Source: Rhodobiaceae bacterium UBA4490
GTDB taxonomy: Bacteria; Pseudomonadota; Alphaproteobacteria; Parvibaculales; Parvibaculaceae
DNA: 64,000 bases
Direction: 5' to 3'
NCBI GenBank assembly: GCA_002389665.1
Contig: DGNO01000004.1
Span: forward strand, 178,149 to 242,148
A program made the position numbers and the translations under genes. The notes under the pieces are model-generated. The model worked only from the letters and a program-made list of their open reading frames with translations. It was not told where the DNA came from and searched no databases. This document shows positions 53,875-63,937 of this stretch, piece by piece. The first letter of the stretch is position 1; each line of letters opens with the position of its first letter.

Positions 53875-54168
53875 ATGTCGGACACAACGGCCAATCGTGA
53901 AGGCCAGACAACTCTCGCCGAAATGCGCTACGGCGAAAAAGGCCGTATTGCCAGCATCTCCAGCCCCGCGGCTGAAAGCCCGGAAAATAACGAAAGCCTG
54001 GCCGCGCGCCTGCTCGAACTCGGCATCATGGAAGGGGCGGAGATCGAAGCCCTGCACCGCTCGCCTTTCGGCGGCGATCCCATGTCGGTGAAAGTCGAGC
54101 GCACCATCATTGCCCTGCGCCGCGCCGATGCCAGCACCATCATCATCGAACGCCTGAACGGAAACTAA
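53875..54168 (+). CDS. feoA: Ferrous iron transport protein A
   Basis: 97 residues, SH3-like FeoA fold: LAEMRYGEKGRIASIS, RLLELGIMEGAEIEALHRSPFGGDPMSVKVERTIIALRRADASTIIIE. FeoA assists FeoB in Fe(II) uptake. Its stop is one base before feoB. Confidence 0.92.
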   Translation: MSDTTANREGQTTLAEMRYGEKGRIASISSPAAESPENNESLAARLLELGIMEGAEIEALHRSPFGGDPMSVKVERTIIALRRADASTIIIERLNGN

Positions 54169-54169
54169 T

Positions 54170-56038
54170 ATGAACTCGGCTCTGCGTCTCGCGCTGGTCG
54201 GCAATCCCAATGCCGGCAAATCCGCCCTCTTCAACGCTCTGACCGGCAGCCGCCAGAAGACCGGCAATTATCCGGGCACGACCGTGGAGCGCCGCGCCGG
54301 GCGCTTTCAAACGCAGCACGGGCTGGAAGTGAACGTCGTCGATCTGCCGGGCACCTATTCGCTCTCCGCGACAAGCCCAGATCAGGTCGTCACCCGCGAA
54401 GTGGTGCTGGGTCAGAGCGACAGCGAGCCGCTGCCCGATGTCATTTTGTGCGTGGTCGATGCAACCAATCTCAAACTCCATCTGCGACTCGTGCTGGAGC
54501 TGAAACAGCTCGGCCGGCCCATGCTGATCGCCCTCAACATGATCGATCTGGCCACCCGCGATAAGATCGATATCGATGTGGAGGCGCTGGAAAGCGCGCT
54601 CGGCATTCCCGTCATTCCGACCGTCGCCGTACGCCGCTCGGGCGTAAAGGAGCTCAGCGTCGAGCTGTCGAACCACCTCAATGACCTCGTCGAGGAAGCC
54701 GCCAAGACGGGCCCTGCTCCCGCCTGGCAGCCGCAGGACCTGAAATCCCTGCAAAAAGAAGCCGGCCGCATCGCGAAAGCCGCCACGCGCTCCGAAGGCA
54801 TCGAGCATTTGATGACGCGCCGCCTCGATGCGGTGTTCCTGCATAAGGTTGCCGGCCCCATCATTCTCTTTGCCATGCTTTTCGTCATGTTCCAGGCCGT
54901 CTTCGCCTGGGCCGAAACGCCGATGGAATGGATCGATATGGGCATCGGCGCGCTGGCCGACTGGCTCACCGCCAGCCTGCCGGACAATGCCCTGCGCAGC
55001 CTGCTTGTCGACGGGGTGATCGCCGGCGTCGGCTCGGTCGTCGTCTTCCTGCCGCAGATCCTTATTCTCTTTGCCTTCATTCTGGCGCTGGAAGCCTCGG
55101 GCTATATGGCCCGCGGCGCCTTCCTGATGGACCGGATCATGGCAAGCGTGGGGCTCAATGGCCGCGCCTTCATTCCGCTGCTTTCCAGCTTTGCCTGCGC
55201 CATTCCCGGCATCATGGCAACGCGCACCATCGACAATCCGCGCGACCGCCTGACCACCATCATGATCGCCCCGCTCATGACCTGTTCGGCGCGCATCCCC
55301 GTCTATACGCTGCTCATCGCCGCTTTCATTCCCAACCAGGCCGTGGGCGGCATCTTCAATCTGCAAGGGGTCGTGCTTTTCGCGCTTTATCTGGCGGGCA
55401 TCGTCAGCGCGCTCATCGTTGCCGGTGTCCTGAAGCGCACCGTCACGAAAGGCGCCTCCCAGTCGCTGCTCATGGAACTGCCGAAATATCAGCTCCCCAA
55501 TCTGCGTGACCTGGTACTCGGCCTTTATGAGCGCGTGAAAATCTTCATGGCGCGGGCGGGTAAATTCATCCTGACCACCATGATCGTGCTCTGGGTGCTG
55601 GCTTCCTATCCAGCCGCGCCAGCCGATGCCGCCTTGCCGGATATCTATTATTCCTATGCCGGGCAGATCGGCCGGGTGCTGGAAATTCTCTTCGCGCCCA
55701 TCGGCTTTACCTGGGAGATCGCAATCTCGCTCGTGCCCGGCATGGCCGCGCGGGAAGTCTTTGTCGGCGCGCTCGGCACGGTCTATGCGCTCTCGGGCAG
55801 TGAAGACCAGATCGCAACGAGCCTCGTCTCCCGCCTGCAAAACGCCTGGTCGCTGCCCACCGCCCTTGCCGTCATGGCCTGGTACGTCTATGCGCCGCAA
55901 TGCCTCGCCACCCTCGCCGTTGCCAAGCGTGAGACGAACTCCTGGGGCTGGATGTTCTTCATGGCCGGCTATCTGACCGCCATTGCCTATCTGGCAGCGG
56001 GCATCACCTATTGGACCGCTACCGCGATCATCGGATAA
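54170..56038 (+). CDS. feoB: Ferrous iron transporter B
   Basis: 622 residues, GTPase-coupled inner-membrane Fe(II) permease. G1 is GNPNAGKS, G3 DLPGTYS, G4 NMID; the membrane domain starts near residue 225 and includes PCS-region and gate motifs such as SSFACAIPGIMATRTI and PGMAAREVFVGALG. Somewhat shorter than the E. coli protein, as for many FeoB proteins lacking the long C-terminal part. Operon with feoA, under a Fur-type site. No feoC seen. Confidence 0.95.
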   Translation: MNSALRLALVGNPNAGKSALFNALTGSRQKTGNYPGTTVERRAGRFQTQHGLEVNVVDLPGTYSLSATSPDQVVTREVVLGQSDSEPLPDVILCVVDATNLKLHLRLVLELKQLGRPMLIALNMIDLATRDKIDIDVEALESALGIPVIPTVAVRRSGVKELSVELSNHLNDLVEEAAKTGPAPAWQPQDLKSLQKEAGRIAKAATRSEGIEHLMTRRLDAVFLHKVAGPIILFAMLFVMFQAVFAWAETPMEWIDMGIGALADWLTASLPDNALRSLLVDGVIAGVGSVVVFLPQILILFAFILALEASGYMARGAFLMDRIMASVGLNGRAFIPLLSSFACAIPGIMATRTIDNPRDRLTTIMIAPLMTCSARIPVYTLLIAAFIPNQAVGGIFNLQGVVLFALYLAGIVSALIVAGVLKRTVTKGASQSLLMELPKYQLPNLRDLVLGLYERVKIFMARAGKFILTTMIVLWVLASYPAAPADAALPDIYYSYAGQIGRVLEILFAPIGFTWEIAISLVPGMAAREVFVGALGTVYALSGSEDQIATSLVSRLQNAWSLPTALAVMAWYVYAPQCLATLAVAKRETNSWGWMFFMAGYLTAIAYLAAGITYWTATAIIG

Positions 56039-56192
56039 GCCATAAAGATCAAGCGCTTACCGGATTAGTATGCGCTTTCTAGACTTCCTGTCCTAAACCT
56101 GCGCTCAACGGAAAGGGCGCCCCCCCAACCTGGGTTTCCAGGCGGGGCCCGAGCGGCCCCGGCCCTTTCCCCCAATGGACAGGAGAGTGACC

Positions 56193-56684
56193 ATGGCGAA
56201 GAAAACCGAAACCCGCGAACTTTTCGCAACCGTTCCCGCCGCCCGCACGCTGTGGCTGGCCAGCCTCGGCTTTTACGGCCGCCTCTATGACGAAGCGCTG
56301 AAGCGCGCCGAACAGCCGCGCGAACGCGCCCAGACCCTCTTTAGCGGTTTCGTGGCCAAAGGCGAGGAAGTGGAAAAAGAAACCCGCACCACGCTGACCC
56401 GCGCCCAGAAGGAAGCAACCGACAATCTGAAAGCCGCCCGCACCCAGGTGCAGTCCACGGTGGAAGAGCGCATCGCCAAGCTGCGCGACGCCCTGCCGGT
56501 TCCCCAGCTTCCTGCCAATGTCTTCCCGGCCAATGCCCGGATCAAGGAACTGGAAGCGGAAGTCGATGCTCTGACCCGCAAAGTCAACGCGCTGAACGCC
56601 AAGAAGGCCGCCGCCAAAACGGCAGCGAAGCCGGCCGCTCCCAAAGCTGCCGCCAAGCCGCGCACCGCTAAAAAGGCTGCGTGA
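56193..56684 (+). CDS. Phasin of the PhaF/PhaI type, upstream copy
   Basis: 163 residues from ATG 56193, with GGACAGGAGAGTG just before it. The phasin region begins RTLWLASLGFYGRLYDEA, close in pattern to PhaI/PhaF proteins of Pseudomonas, which coat PHA granules. A helical part (EEVEKETRTTLTRAQKEATDNLKAA) and a coiled coil with heptads (RIKELEAEVDALTRKVNALN) follow. The last 30 residues are Ala/Lys/Pro-rich like a histone H1 tail. A strong terminator separates it from phaC, so it is an independent transcript. Confidence 0.88.
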   Translation: MAKKTETRELFATVPAARTLWLASLGFYGRLYDEALKRAEQPRERAQTLFSGFVAKGEEVEKETRTTLTRAQKEATDNLKAARTQVQSTVEERIAKLRDALPVPQLPANVFPANARIKELEAEVDALTRKVNALNAKKAAAKTAAKPAAPKAAAKPRTAKKAA

Positions 56685-56709
56685 GTCCTCCCTGACGCAA
56701 GCTGAAACT

Positions 56710-56743
56710 GGCCCCGGCCTTACAAAGTCCGGGGCCTTTTTTT
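56710..56743 (+). terminator. Terminator after the upstream phasin gene
   Basis: GGCCCCGG (56710-56717) and CCGGGGCC (56729-56736) with an 11-base loop, followed by seven T's (56737-56743). Confidence 0.88.
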
Positions 56744-56756
56744 AAGCCGTTTATTG

Positions 56757-56765
56757 TGCACTGCA
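56757..56765 (+). promoter_or_regulatory. Candidate PhaR-binding site before phaC
   Basis: TGCACTGCA is a TGC-N3-GCA palindrome, same form as the sites before phaR. It lies 144 bases before the phaC start, after the phasin terminator. A six-base hairpin AGGACC/GGTCCT (56778-56795) with GTGTTTTTC follows. Confidence 0.5.
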
Positions 56766-56908
56766 CCTTAAGTTACCAGGACCCTTACAGGTCCTCGCGT
56801 GTTTTTCACTTCTATTTACTGGCGATTATGCGTTCTACTTAATCCCGGAGGAGCGCCGCCCCGGCGGCCAGCGACCGGAATACCGGCGCAAGTGAGGAGG
56901 GATAATCT

Positions 56909-58588
56909 ATGGCGAACACGGATCATAATCTTGGCAAGAAGGCCGACGAGAACACCATTGCCATGAGCCCGCTGGTGGGCCTGCCGCGCGAAGAGCTGCT
57001 GGCGGCCATCGGCACCGTGCTGAAGGAAACGGCCCGCCACCCGATAAATTTCGCACGCCATGCCGGCACGTTCGGCAAGGATGTCGTCGACATCGTGCGC
57101 GGGAAATCCGAGCTCGGCCCGGAGCCGAAGGACAAGCGCTTCAAAGACCCGACATGGGCTTTCAACCCGGTCTACCGCGCCGGTATGCAAAGCTGGATGG
57201 CGCTGCAAAAGGGCCTCAACAATTGGGTGGACGATCTGGAGCTTGCCGAGCTTGAGCGCGCCCGCGCCCAGATCGTGCTCAACATGATCACCGATGCCCT
57301 CTCTCCCACGAACTCGCTGATCGGCAATCCGGCCGCCCTCAAACGCGCCTACGAGACGGGCGGGCTTTCCCTCGTCAAAGGCCTGAAAAACGCCTATGGC
57401 GACATCGTCCATAATGGCGGTATGCCCTCACAGGTCGACAAGCGCCCCTTCAAAGTGGGCGAGAACCTCGCCTTGAGCGAAGGCGCCGTCGTCTACCGCA
57501 CGGAAATGGCCGAGCTCATTCAATACAAACCCCAGACACCGGAAGTTTATGAGATTCCGGTCTTCATGGTGCCGCCTCAGATCAACAAATTCTATGTCTC
57601 CGATCTGTGCCCGGAACTGTCGCTGGTGAATTACCTCACCCAGCTCGGCCATCAGGTCTTTATCATTTCCTGGCGCAACCCGACGAAGGAACACGCCCAT
57701 TGGGGCCTGGCCGATTACATCCGCACCGTGACGGAGCTTTCCGACGTGGCGATGAAAATCACCGGTCAGAAGAAACTCAACATCACCGGCGCCTGCTCCG
57801 GCGGCATCACGGTTTCGACATTGCTCTCGAACCTTGCCGCGGAAAATGACGAGCGCGTGAACACCGTGACCCTGCAGGTCTGCGTCCTCGATCCGCGCCG
57901 CACGGACAGCGAAATGGGCTCCCTCGTCAACAAGCGCGGGCTGGAACTGGCGCGCAAACGCTCGGCCAAGAAAGGCGTTCTGGAGGGCAGCGATCTGGCG
58001 CGCATGTTCGCCTGGCTGCGCCCTAACGACCTCGTCTGGAACTATGTGGTCAACAATTATCTTCTGGGTGAAGACCCGCCCGCGTTCAATATTTTGTTCT
58101 GGAACAACGATTCTACCAATCTTACCGCTGCGCTGCATTCGGACTATCTGGCACTATATGAAAGACAGCCTTTTGCGAATCAGGGAACGGTTGATTTCAT
58201 GGGGAACATGATCGATCTGCGCAAAGTCAAAGCCGACACCTTCATCGTTGCCGGCATGACCGATCACATCACCCCCTGGAAAGCCTGTTACCGCACGACC
58301 CATCTGATGGGCGGCAATGTGAAGTTCGTTCTGTCCGCAGGCGGACATATTCAGGCGCTTCTCAACCCGCCGCTGAATCCGAAGGCGAAGTTTTATTGGA
58401 ACGAACAGAATCCGGACAATCCGGAAGAATGGCTGGCAGGCGCAAGCGAGAAGAAAGGCTCCTGGTGGGACGAATGGGCGGTTTGGCTTTCCGAACGCTC
58501 CGGCGCCCCCAAGCCCGCGCCCAAGAAACTGGGGAACCGTAAATATCCCCCGATCGAGGCAGCGCCCGGCAGCTATGTGTTCGAATAG
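56909..58588 (+). CDS. phaC: Class II polyhydroxyalkanoate synthase
   Basis: 559 residues, the same length as Pseudomonas PhaC1. The lipase-like box is GACSGGI with Cys296; with Asp452 (GMTDHITPW) and His480 (SAGGHIQ) it gives the triad at the numbers known from P. aeruginosa PhaC1. ADENTIAMSPLVGL, DPTWAFNPVYR, MPSQVDKRPFKVGENLALSEGAVV, IQYKPQT, VPPQINKFYVSDL, LERSGAPKPAPKKLGN-type ends match class II synthases, which polymerise 3-hydroxyacyl-CoA of about C6-C14. A strong GAGGAGGG site precedes the ATG. Followed directly by phaZ. Confidence 0.93.
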   Translation: MANTDHNLGKKADENTIAMSPLVGLPREELLAAIGTVLKETARHPINFARHAGTFGKDVVDIVRGKSELGPEPKDKRFKDPTWAFNPVYRAGMQSWMALQKGLNNWVDDLELAELERARAQIVLNMITDALSPTNSLIGNPAALKRAYETGGLSLVKGLKNAYGDIVHNGGMPSQVDKRPFKVGENLALSEGAVVYRTEMAELIQYKPQTPEVYEIPVFMVPPQINKFYVSDLCPELSLVNYLTQLGHQVFIISWRNPTKEHAHWGLADYIRTVTELSDVAMKITGQKKLNITGACSGGITVSTLLSNLAAENDERVNTVTLQVCVLDPRRTDSEMGSLVNKRGLELARKRSAKKGVLEGSDLARMFAWLRPNDLVWNYVVNNYLLGEDPPAFNILFWNNDSTNLTAALHSDYLALYERQPFANQGTVDFMGNMIDLRKVKADTFIVAGMTDHITPWKACYRTTHLMGGNVKFVLSAGGHIQALLNPPLNPKAKFYWNEQNPDNPEEWLAGASEKKGSWWDEWAVWLSERSGAPKPAPKKLGNRKYPPIEAAPGSYVFE

Positions 58589-58602
58589 AAAAGGATGAGT
58601 AT

Positions 58603-59460
58603 ATGCCGGTAGGCAAAACCCCGTCTCATACGCCGCATCTGCCGAAGATGCGCTATCCGACCATCGGCGGACAGAAACTGCGCGTGGCGATCTGGGAAGG
58701 ATCGGGGCGGGCCCGGCCTATTCTCTTCTTCAACGGCATCGGCGCCAATCTGGAACTGGCAGCGCCCTTGGGCGAGGCCTTTACCGACCGCGACGTCATC
58801 ACCTTCGACATGCCCGGCATCGGCAAGTCGCCGGCCCCGCGCTGGCCTTACCGGGCCTGGCAGGCCGCGCGGCTCGCCCGCAAGGTGCTCGATGAATATG
58901 GCTATGACGAAGTAGACGTGCTCGGCGTTTCCTGGGGCGGGGCGATGGCGCAGCAATTTGCCATGCAGTACCGCGCCCGTGTCGGCAAGCTGATGTTGGC
59001 GGCCACATCCGCGGGCATGGTGATGGTGCCGGGCAAGCCCAAGGCACTTTCCAAGCTTGCCCATCCGCGCCGCTATCTCGATCCCGCCTATCTGATGCGC
59101 AATTTCGAGCAGCTTTACGGCGATGATCCCAATATGGCCGAAACGCACGCGATCAGCATTCTGCCGCCCACCGCGCGCGGCTATATGTACCAGCTTCTCG
59201 CCATGGCGGGCTGGACCTCCGTGCCCTTCCTGCCCTTCCTGCCGCATCCGACACTGATCATGATGGGCGACAGGGACAATATCGTGCCGCTCGCCAACGG
59301 GCATATTCTCAAGACGCTTATTCCTCAGTCCCGCCTGCACGTCGTTAAAGGCGGCGGGCACCTTTTCCTCGTCAGCCGGGCCGATGAAATCATCCCTGTG
59401 ATGCAGGATTTCCTGGACACGCCCGAGGAATTCGAAGGGGCTGGAGCACCTGCGCTCTAG
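58603..59460 (+). CDS. phaZ: Intracellular medium-chain PHA depolymerase
   Basis: 285 residues. LFFNGIGANLELAAPL, TFDMPGIGKSPAPRWPYR, VLGVSWGGAMAQQFA (Ser110), LAATSAGMVMVPGKPK, HPRRYLDP and VVKGGGHLFLVSRADEI (His253) closely follow Pseudomonas PhaZ; the acid is Asp223 or Asp225 in MMGDRDNIVPL. It hydrolyses stored mcl-PHA to 3-hydroxy acids. The gene starts 14 bases after phaC and the two form an operon, as in Pseudomonas. Confidence 0.92.
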   Translation: MPVGKTPSHTPHLPKMRYPTIGGQKLRVAIWEGSGRARPILFFNGIGANLELAAPLGEAFTDRDVITFDMPGIGKSPAPRWPYRAWQAARLARKVLDEYGYDEVDVLGVSWGGAMAQQFAMQYRARVGKLMLAATSAGMVMVPGKPKALSKLAHPRRYLDPAYLMRNFEQLYGDDPNMAETHAISILPPTARGYMYQLLAMAGWTSVPFLPFLPHPTLIMMGDRDNIVPLANGHILKTLIPQSRLHVVKGGGHLFLVSRADEIIPVMQDFLDTPEEFEGAGAPAL

Positions 59461-59491
59461 CCCTGCGCATTCACCTTCAAAGGAGGCCTTC

Positions 59492-59977
59492 ATGCCGCGA
59501 CAGAAAACCCCCGTGGACCGCGCCAGCGAACTTGCCCGCCGTATCTGGCTTGCCGGTGTCGGCGCCTACGGCCAGGCATATGATGAAGCCCAGGAACAGA
59601 TGTCGCGGGTGAATGAGGAAACCAGCAAAGTTTTCGACGAGCTGGTCAATCGCGGCGAAACGCTGGAAAAGAAACTCGCACCCGCGCGCGAGCGCATGAG
59701 CCAGCAATCGGACAAGGCGCTCGCCTCCCTCGAAGAACGCCTTGAAAAGATGCGCGCCATGTTCGGCATGAGCGGCAACGACCCCGACCTTGCCCGCAAG
59801 GTGGATACGCTGACCGCAAAGGTCGATGCGCTTTCCGCGAAGCTCGATGCGCTCGCCGCAGCGGGCGCAAAAAGGCCGGCGGCCAAAAAAGCAGCAGTAA
59901 AAAAACCTGCCGCGAAGAAAAAAGCGCCCGCCAAGAAAACCGCGGCGAAGAAGAAAACCGCCGCGAAGAAACGCTGA
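59492..59977 (+). CDS. phaF: Phasin of the PhaF type with histone-like tail
   Basis: 161 residues. ARRIWLAGVGAYGQAYDEAQEQMS marks the phasin (PHA granule-associated) domain, followed by a helical part and a coiled coil (DLARKVDTLTAKVDALSAKLDAL). From about residue 126 the tail is almost only Ala, Lys and Pro with AAKK repeats, as in PhaF, whose tail binds DNA and helps share granules between daughter cells. 31 bases after phaZ and 25 before phaD; likely in the same operon. Confidence 0.9.
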   Translation: MPRQKTPVDRASELARRIWLAGVGAYGQAYDEAQEQMSRVNEETSKVFDELVNRGETLEKKLAPARERMSQQSDKALASLEERLEKMRAMFGMSGNDPDLARKVDTLTAKVDALSAKLDALAAAGAKRPAAKKAAVKKPAAKKKAPAKKTAAKKKTAAKKR

Positions 59978-60002
59978 TGCGAAGCGGGGAAGCTGAAGCG
60001 GC

Positions 60003-60647
60003 ATGAAAACCCGCGACCGGATTCTCAAATCGGCGCTCGTCCTTTTCAATGAAGAGGGCGAGCCTTCCGTTTCCACCGTCGATATCGCCAATGAAGTCGG
60101 CATCAGCCCCGGCAATCTCTATTATCATTTCCGCGGCAAGGAAGTGCTGATCGAGGCGCTTTTCGATTCGTTCGAAGAAGAAATGCACATCGTTCTGGAA
60201 GCGCCCGTCGCCAAGCCCCTATCGGTCGAGGACAACTGGCTCTATCTCTATGTGGTCTTCGAAGAGATCTACGATTTCCGCTTCTTCTACCGCAACCTCT
60301 CCGATCTCTTGCAGCGCTATCCCCATCTTGCCCGCAGATTCCGCGACCTTCTCTCCTTGAAGGAACGCGCGCTCGGCGCCTTGCTGCGCGAACTGGCGAG
60401 CCGCGATTTCATTCATTTGGGTGAGGCGGAGCATATCCATCTTGCCGAACGGCTGACGCTGTTCATGACTTACTGGATGAACGACCGGGCCGTGCGCCAT
60501 CCCGAAGAAGACGGACCGGACCTTATCCATCGCGGCGTCTTTCAGATGCTGCTCACCATCGGCGCTTATGTGCCGGAAGGGCGCGAGGTATTCCTCACAC
60601 TGGTGGAAGGCTTTTATGCCGATATTGCCGCCAAAAAACGCCGCTGA
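60003..60647 (+). CDS. phaD: PhaD-type TetR regulator of PHA synthesis
   Basis: 214 residues. MKTRDRILKSALVLFNEEGEPSVSTVDIANEVGISPGNLYYHFRGKE is near-identical in pattern to Pseudomonas PhaD, the TetR-like activator of mcl-PHA genes. The ligand-binding part shows YDFRFFYRNLSDLLQRYPHLARRFRDLLSLK, also PhaD-like. Its ligand in Pseudomonas is thought to be a fatty-acid CoA ester. End of the phaC-phaZ-phaF-phaD run. Confidence 0.9.
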   Translation: MKTRDRILKSALVLFNEEGEPSVSTVDIANEVGISPGNLYYHFRGKEVLIEALFDSFEEEMHIVLEAPVAKPLSVEDNWLYLYVVFEEIYDFRFFYRNLSDLLQRYPHLARRFRDLLSLKERALGALLRELASRDFIHLGEAEHIHLAERLTLFMTYWMNDRAVRHPEEDGPDLIHRGVFQMLLTIGAYVPEGREVFLTLVEGFYADIAAKKRR

Positions 60648-60879: not shown

Positions 60880-62244
60880 ATGAAAAAGAGCATTGCTCTG
60901 GCTTCGGTGCTGGTCGCCGGCTCGCTTGCCGGAACGGCGGCAGCCAAAGTGCCCGAAGCGCAAACGAACCGGCTTGGCAACGATTTGACGCCGATTGGGG
61001 CGGAGAAGGCCGGTAATGGCGGGGACATTCCCGCCTGGACGGGCGGGCTGACAAGCGTGCCCGACAGCGTCAAAGGGGATTTTCAGGCAGGCAGCCTGAT
61101 GCCCAATCCCTTCGCCAGCGACAAACCCAAAGTCGAAGTCACCCCGGCCAATATGGGCCAGTATTCGGATAAGCTGACGGAAGGCTATAAAGCGCTTCTG
61201 ACGACTTATCCCGATTACAAGATGAAGGTCTATCAGACCCGCCGCTCCTGCGCGTATCCCGAATTCGTCTATGAAGCGACGAAGCGCAACTCGCAGGTCG
61301 CGGACCTGACGCCGGGCGGTAACGGCGTCTCGAAAGGGATCATGGGTTTCCCGTTCCCCATCCCCAACAATGCGCTGGAAGTGATCTGGAACCACACGCT
61401 GCGCTATCGCGGCTTCAAGCTGACCCGTGAATTCACGGCAGCGCCGGTGACGCGTTCGGGCGAGTACGAGCTCATCACCGTGCAGGACGAAGCCATCTTG
61501 CAATGGTCCGACCCGAAGAAGAACGCGGCTGAAGAGCTGGACAATATCTCGCTCTACTACATCGCCAATACCGTGGCGCCTGCCCGTTCCGCCGGCAGCG
61601 TGATCCTCGTGCACGAAACGCTGAACCGTGCGCTGGAAGACCGCAAAGCCTGGCAGTATTCGCCTGGCACCCGCCGTGTGCGCCGTGCCCCGAACATTGC
61701 TTACGACAATCCGGGCACCAATTCCGACGGGCTTTCCACCTCGGACAGCTTCGACGGCTATAACGGCGCTCCGGATCGCTACAACTGGAAGGTGATCGGC
61801 AAGTCGGAAAAATTCGTTGCCGCGAATTCCTATGATGCGACGCTTGCTAGCTACGATCAGCTGATCAAGCCGTTGCATCTCAATCAGGATTACGTGCGCT
61901 ACGAGAACCACCGTGTCTGGACCATCGAGGCGACGCTGAAAGAAGGTACCCGCCACGTCTATTCGCGCCGGGTGAAACATCTGGACGAAGACAGCTGGAC
62001 CATGACAGGCGCCGAGCTTTACGACGGCCGCGGCGAGCTGTGGCGTGTGCAGGAACTGCATGGCCGCCAGTCTTATGCCGTGCCGCTCTGCAATAAGGGC
62101 GCGGAGATCGTCTACGACCTGCAGGCCGGCCGTTACCTCGCTCTGGCGCTGCAGAACGAAGGCCAGCCGATCAATTATGCGGCCGACGAACTGGATGTCG
62201 ACCGCTACACCCCGGCTGCGATTCGCCGCCTCGGTGTGCGCTAA
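60880..62244 (+). CDS. DUF1329 protein, first tandem copy
   Basis: 454 residues, exported. A signal peptide (MKKSIALASVLVAGSLAGTAAAK) is followed by NRLGNDLTPIGAEKAGNGGDIPAWTGGL, the DUF1329 start. The family has an outer-membrane lipoprotein-sorting-protein-like fold and often lies near transporters and fatty acid genes; the function is unproved. AGAAAGGAGAAACC and GGAGGAAT lie before the ATG. About 80% identical by eye to the next gene. A strong terminator follows it, so each copy has its own transcript end. Confidence 0.9.
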   Translation: MKKSIALASVLVAGSLAGTAAAKVPEAQTNRLGNDLTPIGAEKAGNGGDIPAWTGGLTSVPDSVKGDFQAGSLMPNPFASDKPKVEVTPANMGQYSDKLTEGYKALLTTYPDYKMKVYQTRRSCAYPEFVYEATKRNSQVADLTPGGNGVSKGIMGFPFPIPNNALEVIWNHTLRYRGFKLTREFTAAPVTRSGEYELITVQDEAILQWSDPKKNAAEELDNISLYYIANTVAPARSAGSVILVHETLNRALEDRKAWQYSPGTRRVRRAPNIAYDNPGTNSDGLSTSDSFDGYNGAPDRYNWKVIGKSEKFVAANSYDATLASYDQLIKPLHLNQDYVRYENHRVWTIEATLKEGTRHVYSRRVKHLDEDSWTMTGAELYDGRGELWRVQELHGRQSYAVPLCNKGAEIVYDLQAGRYLALALQNEGQPINYAADELDVDRYTPAAIRRLGVR

Positions 62245-62271
62245 TAACAACAAGCTTCTCACAATGGCTTG

Positions 62272-62303
62272 AAGCCGGCTCCCTGCGGGGAGCCGGCTTT
62301 TTT
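62272..62303 (+). terminator. Terminator of the first DUF1329 gene
   Basis: AAGCCGGCTCCC (62272-62283) and GGGAGCCGGCTT (62288-62299) with loop TGCG, followed by a six-T run. Confidence 0.93.
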
Positions 62304-62330
62304 GCTAAGGCTTTCAATTCACTGAGAGTC

Positions 62331-62371
62331 CCGATCATCTTAGAGCAAATTATCTTAAGACAGATGATCGG
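62331..62371 (+). repeat. AT-rich inverted repeat before the second DUF1329 gene
   Basis: CCGATCATCT (62331-62340) and AGATGATCGG (62362-62371) are a perfect ten-base inverted repeat; inside, TCTTA and TAAGA extend the symmetry. The centre is AT-rich in a GC-rich genome. It follows the terminator, so it is likely a promoter-region operator or a leader hairpin rather than part of the terminator. Confidence 0.6.
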
Positions 62372-62566
62372 CGAAAACCGGCCGCGCGGACCTTACAAAC
62401 ATTTAATGAAAGGTAACTCTGAAAGAAGGGTAACGTCCTTGTGGAAATGGGTCTCGGATATTCAAGGGGGAGGCCCGCGCCAGAAGACAGATAAAACGGG
62501 CAGAAGAACAGCGTGTGCTGACACTCCTCTTCCCTTCGGTCTGCGGCGATAATCACGGAGGGAACA

Positions 62567-63937
62567 ATGAAAATGAGAAAGAGCGTAGCCTTGGTATCCG
62601 CCTTGGTCGCCGGCACGGTCGCCGGATCGGCTCTGGCCAAGGTGCCCGAGGCTCAGGTCAACCGCCTCGGCGCCGACCTGACGCCCATGGGCTCGGAAAA
62701 AGCAGGTAATGGCGGGGCGATCCCGGCATGGACCGGCGGCCTGTCCAGCGTCCCGGCAAGCGTCCAGGGCGAATACTCGGCCGACAAACTGCTGCCGAAC
62801 CCGTTCAAGGGCGATGCGGTTCAGTTCGAAGTCACCGCTGGCAACATGGCGCAGTATGACGGGCAGCTGACGGAAGGCTATAAAGCCATGCTGTCGACCT
62901 ACCCGACCTACAAGATGAAGGTCTATCAGACCCGCCGTTCTTGTGCCTTCCCGGAATTCGTTTACGAAGCCAACAAGCGCAATGCGCAGGTTTCCGAACT
63001 GACGCCGGGCGGTAACGGTGTGTCCGAAGGGATCATGGGGTCTCCTTTCCCGATCCCCAACAACGCGCTGGAAATCATCTGGAACCACACGCTGCGTTAC
63101 CGCGCCTTCAAACTCACGCGTGAGTTCACGGCAGCGCCGGTGACCCGTTCGGGTGAATACGAACTCCAGACGGTGCAGGACGAAGCGATCATTCAGTGGT
63201 CGGACCCGGCCAAGAAGCGCGCCGAAGAGCTGGACAACATCTCGCTCTATTACATCGCCAACACCGTGGCTCCGGCCCGTTCGGCGGGTAGCGTGATCCT
63301 GGTGCACGAAACGCTGAACCGTGCCCTTGAAGACCGCAAAGCCTGGCAGTATTCGCCCGGTACGCGCCGTGTGCGCCGCGCGCCGAACATTGCTTACGAC
63401 AACCCGGGCACCAACTCCGACGGCCTGTCCACCTCGGACAGCTTTGACGGCTACAATGGCGCCCCGGACCGTTATGACTGGACGGTTCTCGGCAAGTCCG
63501 AGAAGTTCGTTGCAGCTAACGCCTATGACGCTTCGCTGGTCAACTACTCCGACTACCTGAAGCCCCTGCACCTCAACCAGGACCATGTCCGCTATGAGCT
63601 GCACCGGGTCTGGAGCATCGAGGCCAATCTTCGCCCCGGCACGCGCCACGTTTACTCGCGCCGCGTGACCCATCTGGACGAAGACAGCTGGACTATCACC
63701 AACGCAGAACTCTATGACGGCCGCGGCGAGCTGTGGCGCGTTCAGGAACTGCATGGCCGTCAGGACTACGGCGTGCCGCTCTGCAACAAAGGCGCGGAAA
63801 TCGTCTATGACCTGCAGGCTGGCCGTTACCTCGCTCTGGCTCTGCAGAACGAAGGTCAGCCGATCAACTACGGCGCCGAAGAACTGGATGTGAACCGGTA
63901 CACGCCGGCCGCTATCCGCCAGCTCGGCGTGCGTTAA
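62567..63937 (+). CDS. DUF1329 protein, second tandem copy
   Basis: 456 residues, exported; MKMRKSVALVSALVAGTVAGSALAK is the signal peptide and the mature N-terminus is VPEAQVNRLGADLTPMGSEKAGNGG. It is aligned end to end with the first copy and differs mostly in the N-terminal third. One stretch of about 85 residues (from AEELDNIS to GAPDRY) is identical in protein, while the DNA differs at many third positions. It uses AAC, CTG and GTG more often than the first copy, suggesting higher expression. Followed by its own terminator. Confidence 0.9.
   Translation: MKMRKSVALVSALVAGTVAGSALAKVPEAQVNRLGADLTPMGSEKAGNGGAIPAWTGGLSSVPASVQGEYSADKLLPNPFKGDAVQFEVTAGNMAQYDGQLTEGYKAMLSTYPTYKMKVYQTRRSCAFPEFVYEANKRNAQVSELTPGGNGVSEGIMGSPFPIPNNALEIIWNHTLRYRAFKLTREFTAAPVTRSGEYELQTVQDEAIIQWSDPAKKRAEELDNISLYYIANTVAPARSAGSVILVHETLNRALEDRKAWQYSPGTRRVRRAPNIAYDNPGTNSDGLSTSDSFDGYNGAPDRYDWTVLGKSEKFVAANAYDASLVNYSDYLKPLHLNQDHVRYELHRVWSIEANLRPGTRHVYSRRVTHLDEDSWTITNAELYDGRGELWRVQELHGRQDYGVPLCNKGAEIVYDLQAGRYLALALQNEGQPINYGAEELDVNRYTPAAIRQLGVR

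Follow-up and report, generated by a model that had tools for sequence, protein, structure and literature searches.

The 64,000-nucleotide stretch of contig DGNO01000004.1 from Rhodobiaceae bacterium UBA4490 analyzed here (hereafter "the window") carries a five-gene locus for polyhydroxyalkanoate (PHA) granules that is probably composite, with a synthase-depolymerase gene pair (phaC-phaZ) inserted into an older phasin1-phasin2-TetR module. Its PhaC and PhaZ fall in a class-II-like lineage of Alphaproteobacteria that lies apart from Pseudomonas. Known parts are arranged here in a new way, together with a conserved control site, and an origin in Pseudomonas is not supported. An earlier reading of the letters alone (the sequence-only reading) had described five open reading frames in the order phasin1-phaC-phaZ-phasin2-TetR on the forward strand, which we confirmed (Table 1), and a base composition like that of the flanks; the G+C content of the five genes, overall (GC) and at third codon positions (GC3), indeed resembles the window values. 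The host is related to Tepidicaulis marinus, and strain MA2 of that species has the closest named genome: the window DNA is 92% identical to it across 11 kb, and the two PhaC proteins are 99% identical.

An Alphaproteobacterial Class-II-Like Lineage of PhaC and PhaZ

Among the models of the synthase classes, class II fits PhaC best (700.3 bits, vs. 514 for class I and 91 for class III), at a score below the class II (TIGR01839) cut-off of 855.4 bits; of the 39 genomes in a Pseudomonas-type family, 14 have matches that pass it. Cys296, Asp452, and His480 are conserved in the groups counted in the alignment, a second alignment again shows Cys296 and His480, and the length is that of class II enzymes (about 560 aa). 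The class-II-type synthase proposed from length, triad, and motifs was upheld. In a database search limited to scoring the 8000 candidates with the most shared words, the best 120 matches have 58–99% identity to PhaC. Where an organism is named, it is an alphaproteobacterium or merely "bacterium" or "Pseudomonadota bacterium," and one alphaproteobacterial match (P0040) already bears the NCBI name "class II." Five related synthase sequences in the Protein Data Bank each reach less than half of the score against the class II model.

In an unrooted PhaC tree with 84 rows, all 24 alphaproteobacterial class-II-like rows form one clade (support 100 in the Shimodaira-Hasegawa-like approximate likelihood ratio test, SH-aLRT). 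It lies outside the Pseudomonas PhaC1 and PhaC2 clades and outside class I: the 13 Pseudomonas-type PhaC1 rows form a separate clade (support 99), as do the 19 class I synthases (support 100). Here and below, loci are called Pseudomonas-type on the basis of an RNA marker, class II scores, and placement in the tree with PhaC1 rows that bear the name Pseudomonas. Branching among class I, which the sequence-only reading had named as a result that would refute it, was not found. We rejected class I membership because the class II model fits best, the class I clade excludes the window PhaC, and position 481 is Gln rather than Ala. PhaZ gives a parallel result, with all 15 alphaproteobacterial rows in one clade (support 98/100) apart from Pseudomonas-type PhaZ; on the depolymerase model TIGR02240 it scores 246.6 bits, 4 short of the cut-off of 250.6. 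We found no report of an alphaproteobacterial class-II-like PHA synthase lineage in the accessible parts of the open-licence literature.

Of 40 family genomes, 22 hold a PhaC at least 57% identical to that of the window (two of its own genus and 20 of 27 of genus g5, which is Parvibaculum-type in these counts), and with the window PhaC as query 7 of the 40 have no match. Across the class, 7 of 289 sampled genomes, the window's own included, have a copy at least 54% identical, which adds four further families. Two plasmid copies from Alphaproteobacteria (Pukyongiella and Bradyrhizobium) fall outside the alphaproteobacterial clade. One family member (G036, locus L028) has a PhaC that groups with Caulobacter/Phenylobacterium, apart from the other g5 rows, which is a further movement of phaC-phaZ among Alphaproteobacteria. 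A Pseudomonas-type genome (G709, locus L133) has a further divergent class-II-like phaC, which groups with the Bradyrhizobium plasmid copy.

The sequence-only reading had left a choice between gene transfer and an old lineage of the same system. The old lineage stands, and transfer from Pseudomonas is not supported, given the separate clades and the spread of PhaC through the family and beyond it. Transfer of the whole set as one block would fit the shared gene kinds, the similar operator pattern (see below), the PF05597 phasins, and the lack of a PF09361 phasin. However, the window PhaC is 47–50% identical to the 13 Pseudomonas-type PhaC1 rows vs. 54–82% to other rows of its own clade, the PhaC and PhaZ trees separate the two groups, and the phasins and TetR score best against their own family, which together make such a transfer highly improbable. 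That the locus has only one synthase is correct; the genome has a second (G000:C2:596670), which groups with the class I synthases of its own family in the tree.

Separate Distributions of phaC-phaZ and the Phasin-TetR Module

In all 20 alphaproteobacterial loci of this lineage, phaZ comes directly after phaC and shares its strand. A phasin gene stands beside the pair in six and a TetR gene in seven; 13 have neither (E 0.01), and some phasins may be missed in these loci because phasins diverge fast. Conversely, all eight stretches examined from genera g3 and g4 have the order operator-phasin1-phasin2-TetR without phaC or phaZ, with TetR beginning 5–16 bases after phasin2, and a genome of another family (G129) also has the order phasin-phasin-TetR. 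The seven g3 loci (L156–L162) carry the operator and the three genes, and six of the seven g3 genomes gave no PhaC match (E 0.001, window PhaC as query), including three on one or two contigs rated 100% complete (G003, G006, and G009); the seventh, G004, has a match at 39%. Among the genomes read, phaC-phaZ lies inside phasin-phasin-TetR only in Tepidicaulis. The phasin/TetR part and the phaC-phaZ part are distributed differently across genomes. Because the two parts differ in this way, the set was not inherited as one block.

The five-gene locus could instead be ancestral in the family, with phaC-phaZ lost from the middle in related genera. Five other loci (L005, L006, and L094–L096) also join phasin, TetR, and phaC-phaZ, but in another order and with TetR divergent, and the absence of a PhaC match from most g3 genomes is consistent with loss. 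Adjacency of phasin1 and phasin2 in the eight stretches of two genera, and in G129 of another family, speaks against it, as do the Parvibaculum-type copies, which have no phasin found alongside and whose PhaC is not sister to that of Tepidicaulis. In a more careful tree, Tepidicaulis PhaC stands apart from six Parvibaculum-type rows, and the approximately unbiased (AU) test rejects the two as one clade (p 0.0016, for a Parvibaculum-type group chosen after the first tree had been seen). We thus consider an ancestral five-gene locus unlikely, and insertion of phaC-phaZ is the simpler reading.

A bolder and tentative possibility is that PF05597 phasins, PhaD-type regulator, and operator form an old PHA-independent regulon, and that Tepidicaulis and the Pseudomonas line each added polymer cassettes such as phaC-phaZ to it on their own. 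Under this possibility, since the regulon is kept in genomes rated complete in which no synthase was found, the phasins might do other work (nucleoid, lipid, or stress). Such genomes would allow a direct test of a phasin role other than storage.

Phasins and the TetR Regulator

As the sequence-only reading proposed, both phasins are PhaF/PhaI-like. Phasin1 and phasin2 score 34.9 and 47.1 bits on PF05597 (cut-off 28.8) and 36.3 and 43.8 bits, under the cut-off of 94.7, on TIGR01837. In their own genome they are the only PF05597 matches, and no PF09361 match was found. Each matches its own namesake best in genera g3 and g4, where four phasins from two loci also pass the PF05597 cut-off.

The regulator was likewise rightly described as PhaD-like, a TetR protein with PF00440 and PF13972 linked to pha genes; this domain pair also occurs in two PhaD proteins of Pseudomonas type. 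It is 58–63% identical to the TetR proteins of the g3/g4 stretches, 54% to a full-length relative from G129 (P0253; 69% over a 103-residue part of it), and 38–52% over parts to Pseudomonas-type PhaD. In a plasmid search, the best 20 matches listed are at most 44% identical to it.

A Conserved Palindrome Upstream of phasin1

The same 17–18 bases precede a phasin gene in the window and in L005, L006, L094, L095, and L096, as seen in the promoters of the loci fetched for phaC. In the window, this palindrome is TTAGTATGCGCTTTCTAG at 56065, the sole match with at most one mismatch in its own genome. At the same stringency, it occurs in 10 of the 40 family genomes (both Tepidicaulis, 7/7 of g3, and G011), once and without mismatch in each, and always before phasin1. 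No match was found in G010, which belongs to the genus of G011 and is 70% complete, nor in any of the 27 g5 genomes; the reversed control pattern occurs in three of the 40. Among 385 genomes of the class, 15 match the pattern, nine exactly and six with one mismatch. All nine exact matches precede a phasin gene, and a TetR gene of the window kind is present in each locus read with an exact match. One of the six mismatched sites precedes a phasin, and the other five have no phasin or TetR nearby. Across 12 aligned alphaproteobacterial promoters, the site is 95% conserved and its surroundings 45–49%, a contrast that is partly circular because half of these promoters were found with the pattern.

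We also computed a loose pattern, [TC]TAG-N10-CTA[AG]. It precedes phaC1 in 9 of 12 Pseudomonas-type loci (mean 0.10, maximum 1, in 200 shuffles) and phaI in 9 of 11, and of the 19 such sites across 146 kb of these loci, 18 sit at phaC1 or phaI promoters. In Pseudomonas, PhaD activates both promoters, according to the accessible portions of two papers (PMC9049629, PMC11592762). We predict that TetR sets the phasin supply through the operator upstream of phasin1. No description of a PhaD-phasin regulon in Alphaproteobacteria, its conserved control site included, was found in the parts of the open-licence literature available. If so read, the short operator offers a way to seek PhaD-like regulons in other classes.

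The palindrome could instead be part of a promoter or serve a different phasin regulator. In 9 of 12 promoters, CCTA follows the site by 8–9 bases, a placement that would suit a −10 element, and 2 of 11 phaI promoters (L122 and L125) lack the loose pattern, with a one-base variant present. On the other hand, the site is palindromic, is found a single time in each family genome that has it, is accompanied by TetR in each exact-match locus, and resembles the pattern at the two promoters that PhaD reportedly activates. A site for something other than TetR therefore seems distinctly unlikely.

Several observations weigh against a composite locus under PhaD-type control, besides the class II score below its cut-off and the possible loss of phaC-phaZ in relatives. 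With one mismatch allowed, the reversed control occurs in about 54 of the 385 class genomes (hand count), more than the 15 with the pattern itself, so only the exact matches and their position carry weight. The Pseudomonas counts are partly circular because the best matches in those loci were known before the loose pattern was drawn up, and the shuffles leave this circularity uncorrected. The 224 bases upstream of the window phaC contain no loose-pattern site. Finally, in the TetR tree, Pseudomonas PhaD forms a long clade of its own (support 100/99), and other gammaproteobacterial TetR proteins fall among the alphaproteobacterial ones. Because Pseudomonas PhaD is a long separate branch, the window TetR is, on the tree alone, a candidate ortholog of it.

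Two further sets of sites were noted. A second operator-pattern site lies between divergent TetR and phaC in L094 (8717–8734), with a weaker one in L095. Three g3 loci (L156, L159, and L162) have an inverted repeat, TCTAATC-AA-GATTAGA, upstream of phasin2 in the phasin1-phasin2 gap, with half-sites that are operator-like and opposite-facing.

Specificity Positions of PhaC

Specificity positions are numbered after Stutzerimonas stutzeri PhaC1 in a MAFFT alignment (position 477 is window residue 478). The window PhaC has D130, C325, G477, and Q481, vs. E, S, S, and Q in all 13 Pseudomonas-type PhaC1 rows. It thus differs naturally at engineered specificity positions, and the medium-chain specificity claimed in the sequence-only reading is not assured. 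Among the best 120 PhaC matches, C325 is found in 115, Q481 in 120, and G477 in two: P0001, which is 99% identical to the window PhaC, and P0002. Position 481 is Ala in all 19 class I rows, and the GACSGG box is the same as in the P. stutzeri PhaC1 row. We rejected D130 as a special trait; it tells little because D is frequent both among class I rows (16 of 19) and among other class-II-like rows.

For S325C, no paper was found in the open-licence literature search. Cys at position 325 may affect specificity. Reviews report that changes at 130, 325, 477, and 481 (such as E130D, S325T, S477G, and Q481K) let Pseudomonas enzymes take lactyl monomers or make more short-chain polymer, and that those at the first three positions allow polymer containing 3-hydroxybutyrate (3HB) and lactate; for position 325 they treat S325T and the position itself (PMC3815930, PMC6403647, PMC10992027). 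Such changes would suit an enzyme that makes only short-chain polymer and whose class II label says nothing of function, given that D130, C325, and G477 replace E, S, and S. We regard this as improbable, as Gln481 and the GACSGG box are kept and the same genome already has a class I synthase for short monomers. Judging from its residues, we instead predict a mixed short- and medium-chain polymer for the window PhaC.

Locus Features, Transcription, and Proposed Mechanism

Table 1. Features of the PHA locus in the window (positions count from the first base of the window).
Feature	Position	Strand	Remarks
Candidate PhaD-type operator TTAGTATGCGCTTTCTAG	56065–56082	none	upstream of phasin1; palindrome
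Second loose-pattern site	56079–56096		upstream of phasin1; overlaps the operator
phasin1	56193–56684	+	163 aa; PF05597; Ala/Lys-rich tail; earlier start at 56175 also open
Terminator-like hairpin plus T7 run	56710–56743	+	after phasin1
phaC, class-II-like PHA synthase	56909–58588	+	559 aa; PF07167 + PF00561; Cys296, Asp452, His480
phaZ, intracellular PHA depolymerase family	58603–59460	+	285 aa; PF00561; TIGR02240
phasin2	59492–59977	+	161 aa; PF05597; Lys/Ala-rich tail
PhaD-like TetR regulator	60003–60647	+	214 aa; PF00440 + PF13972

The hairpin after phasin1 has arms of 11 with 10 paired and a loop of 5, and its T run was read directly; a consensus terminator scan omits it and gives a weaker one at 56778–56795. 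The gaps between phaC, phaZ, phasin2, and TetR are 14, 31, and 25 bases. This separate terminator would end the phasin1 message, which makes a single transcript of phaC-phaZ-phasin2-TetR probable.

In the mechanism that we propose, the older alphaproteobacterial module would have been operator-phasin1-phasin2-TetR, and a phaC-phaZ pair of the alphaproteobacterial class-II-like lineage would have entered between the two phasin genes. TetR, as a functional counterpart of Pseudomonas PhaD, would read the operator upstream of phasin1 and set the phasin supply. PhaC would polymerize (R)-3-hydroxyacyl-CoA and PhaZ mobilize the polymer; the phasins would coat the granule and might, like PhaF, link it to the nucleoid through their Lys-rich tails.

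Some neighboring genes were named by a look at the sequence. Iron genes precede the phasin module in the window (FeoA/FeoB-like, 53875–56038), and genes resembling a ferric iron ABC transporter precede it in G011 (L163). Downstream, at 60880–63937, is a tandem gene pair, each gene 81–82% DNA-identical to the other copy in L003, which we take to be DUF1329-like. The sequence before the DUF1329-like genes resembles half of the operator. Relatives of this gene pair lie 6–7 kb from phaC in L089 and L105.

Comparison With Known Systems

The 12 Pseudomonas-type loci have the order phaC-phaZ-(phaC)-TetR, one with a single synthase, and convergent phasin genes are present in 11 (the twelfth stretch ends before them). 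The window shares with the Pseudomonas phaC1ZC2D-phaFI system the gene kinds, phaC followed by phaZ, a TetR gene at the end of the phaC row, PF05597 phasins, and an operator-like pattern. Unlike that system, it has one synthase, its phasin genes are on the phaC strand, one before and one after, its PhaC and PhaZ fall in separate clades, and the operator is seen only before phasin1. The single-synthase Pseudomonas-type locus (L130, from G732) comes closer in content, with one synthase, PhaZ, TetR, and two phasins, but is arranged as phaC-phaZ-TetR with convergent phasins on the opposite strand, and its synthase belongs to the Pseudomonas PhaC1 clade. Our analysis suggests that local parts can be enough to build a "Pseudomonas-type" gene cluster.

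The other alphaproteobacterial phaC-phaZ pairs (Parvibaculum-type, Chakrabartia, Hyphomonadaceae, and Kordiimonas) share the PhaC lineage and, where the locus was read, the PhaZ lineage. Outside Tepidicaulis, TetR is divergent where present, and most pairs (13 of the 20 loci) lack a detected phasin or TetR. MaoC-phaC-phaZ loci on plasmid records of Pukyongiella (L078), Bradyrhizobium (L079), and Paraburkholderia (L080), with a DUF445 gene after phaZ in L078 and L080, also combine a class-II-like PhaC with an adjacent or nearby PhaZ. They differ from the window in the hydratase-like gene in front and in lying outside the alphaproteobacterial clade, including those of the two alphaproteobacterial hosts.

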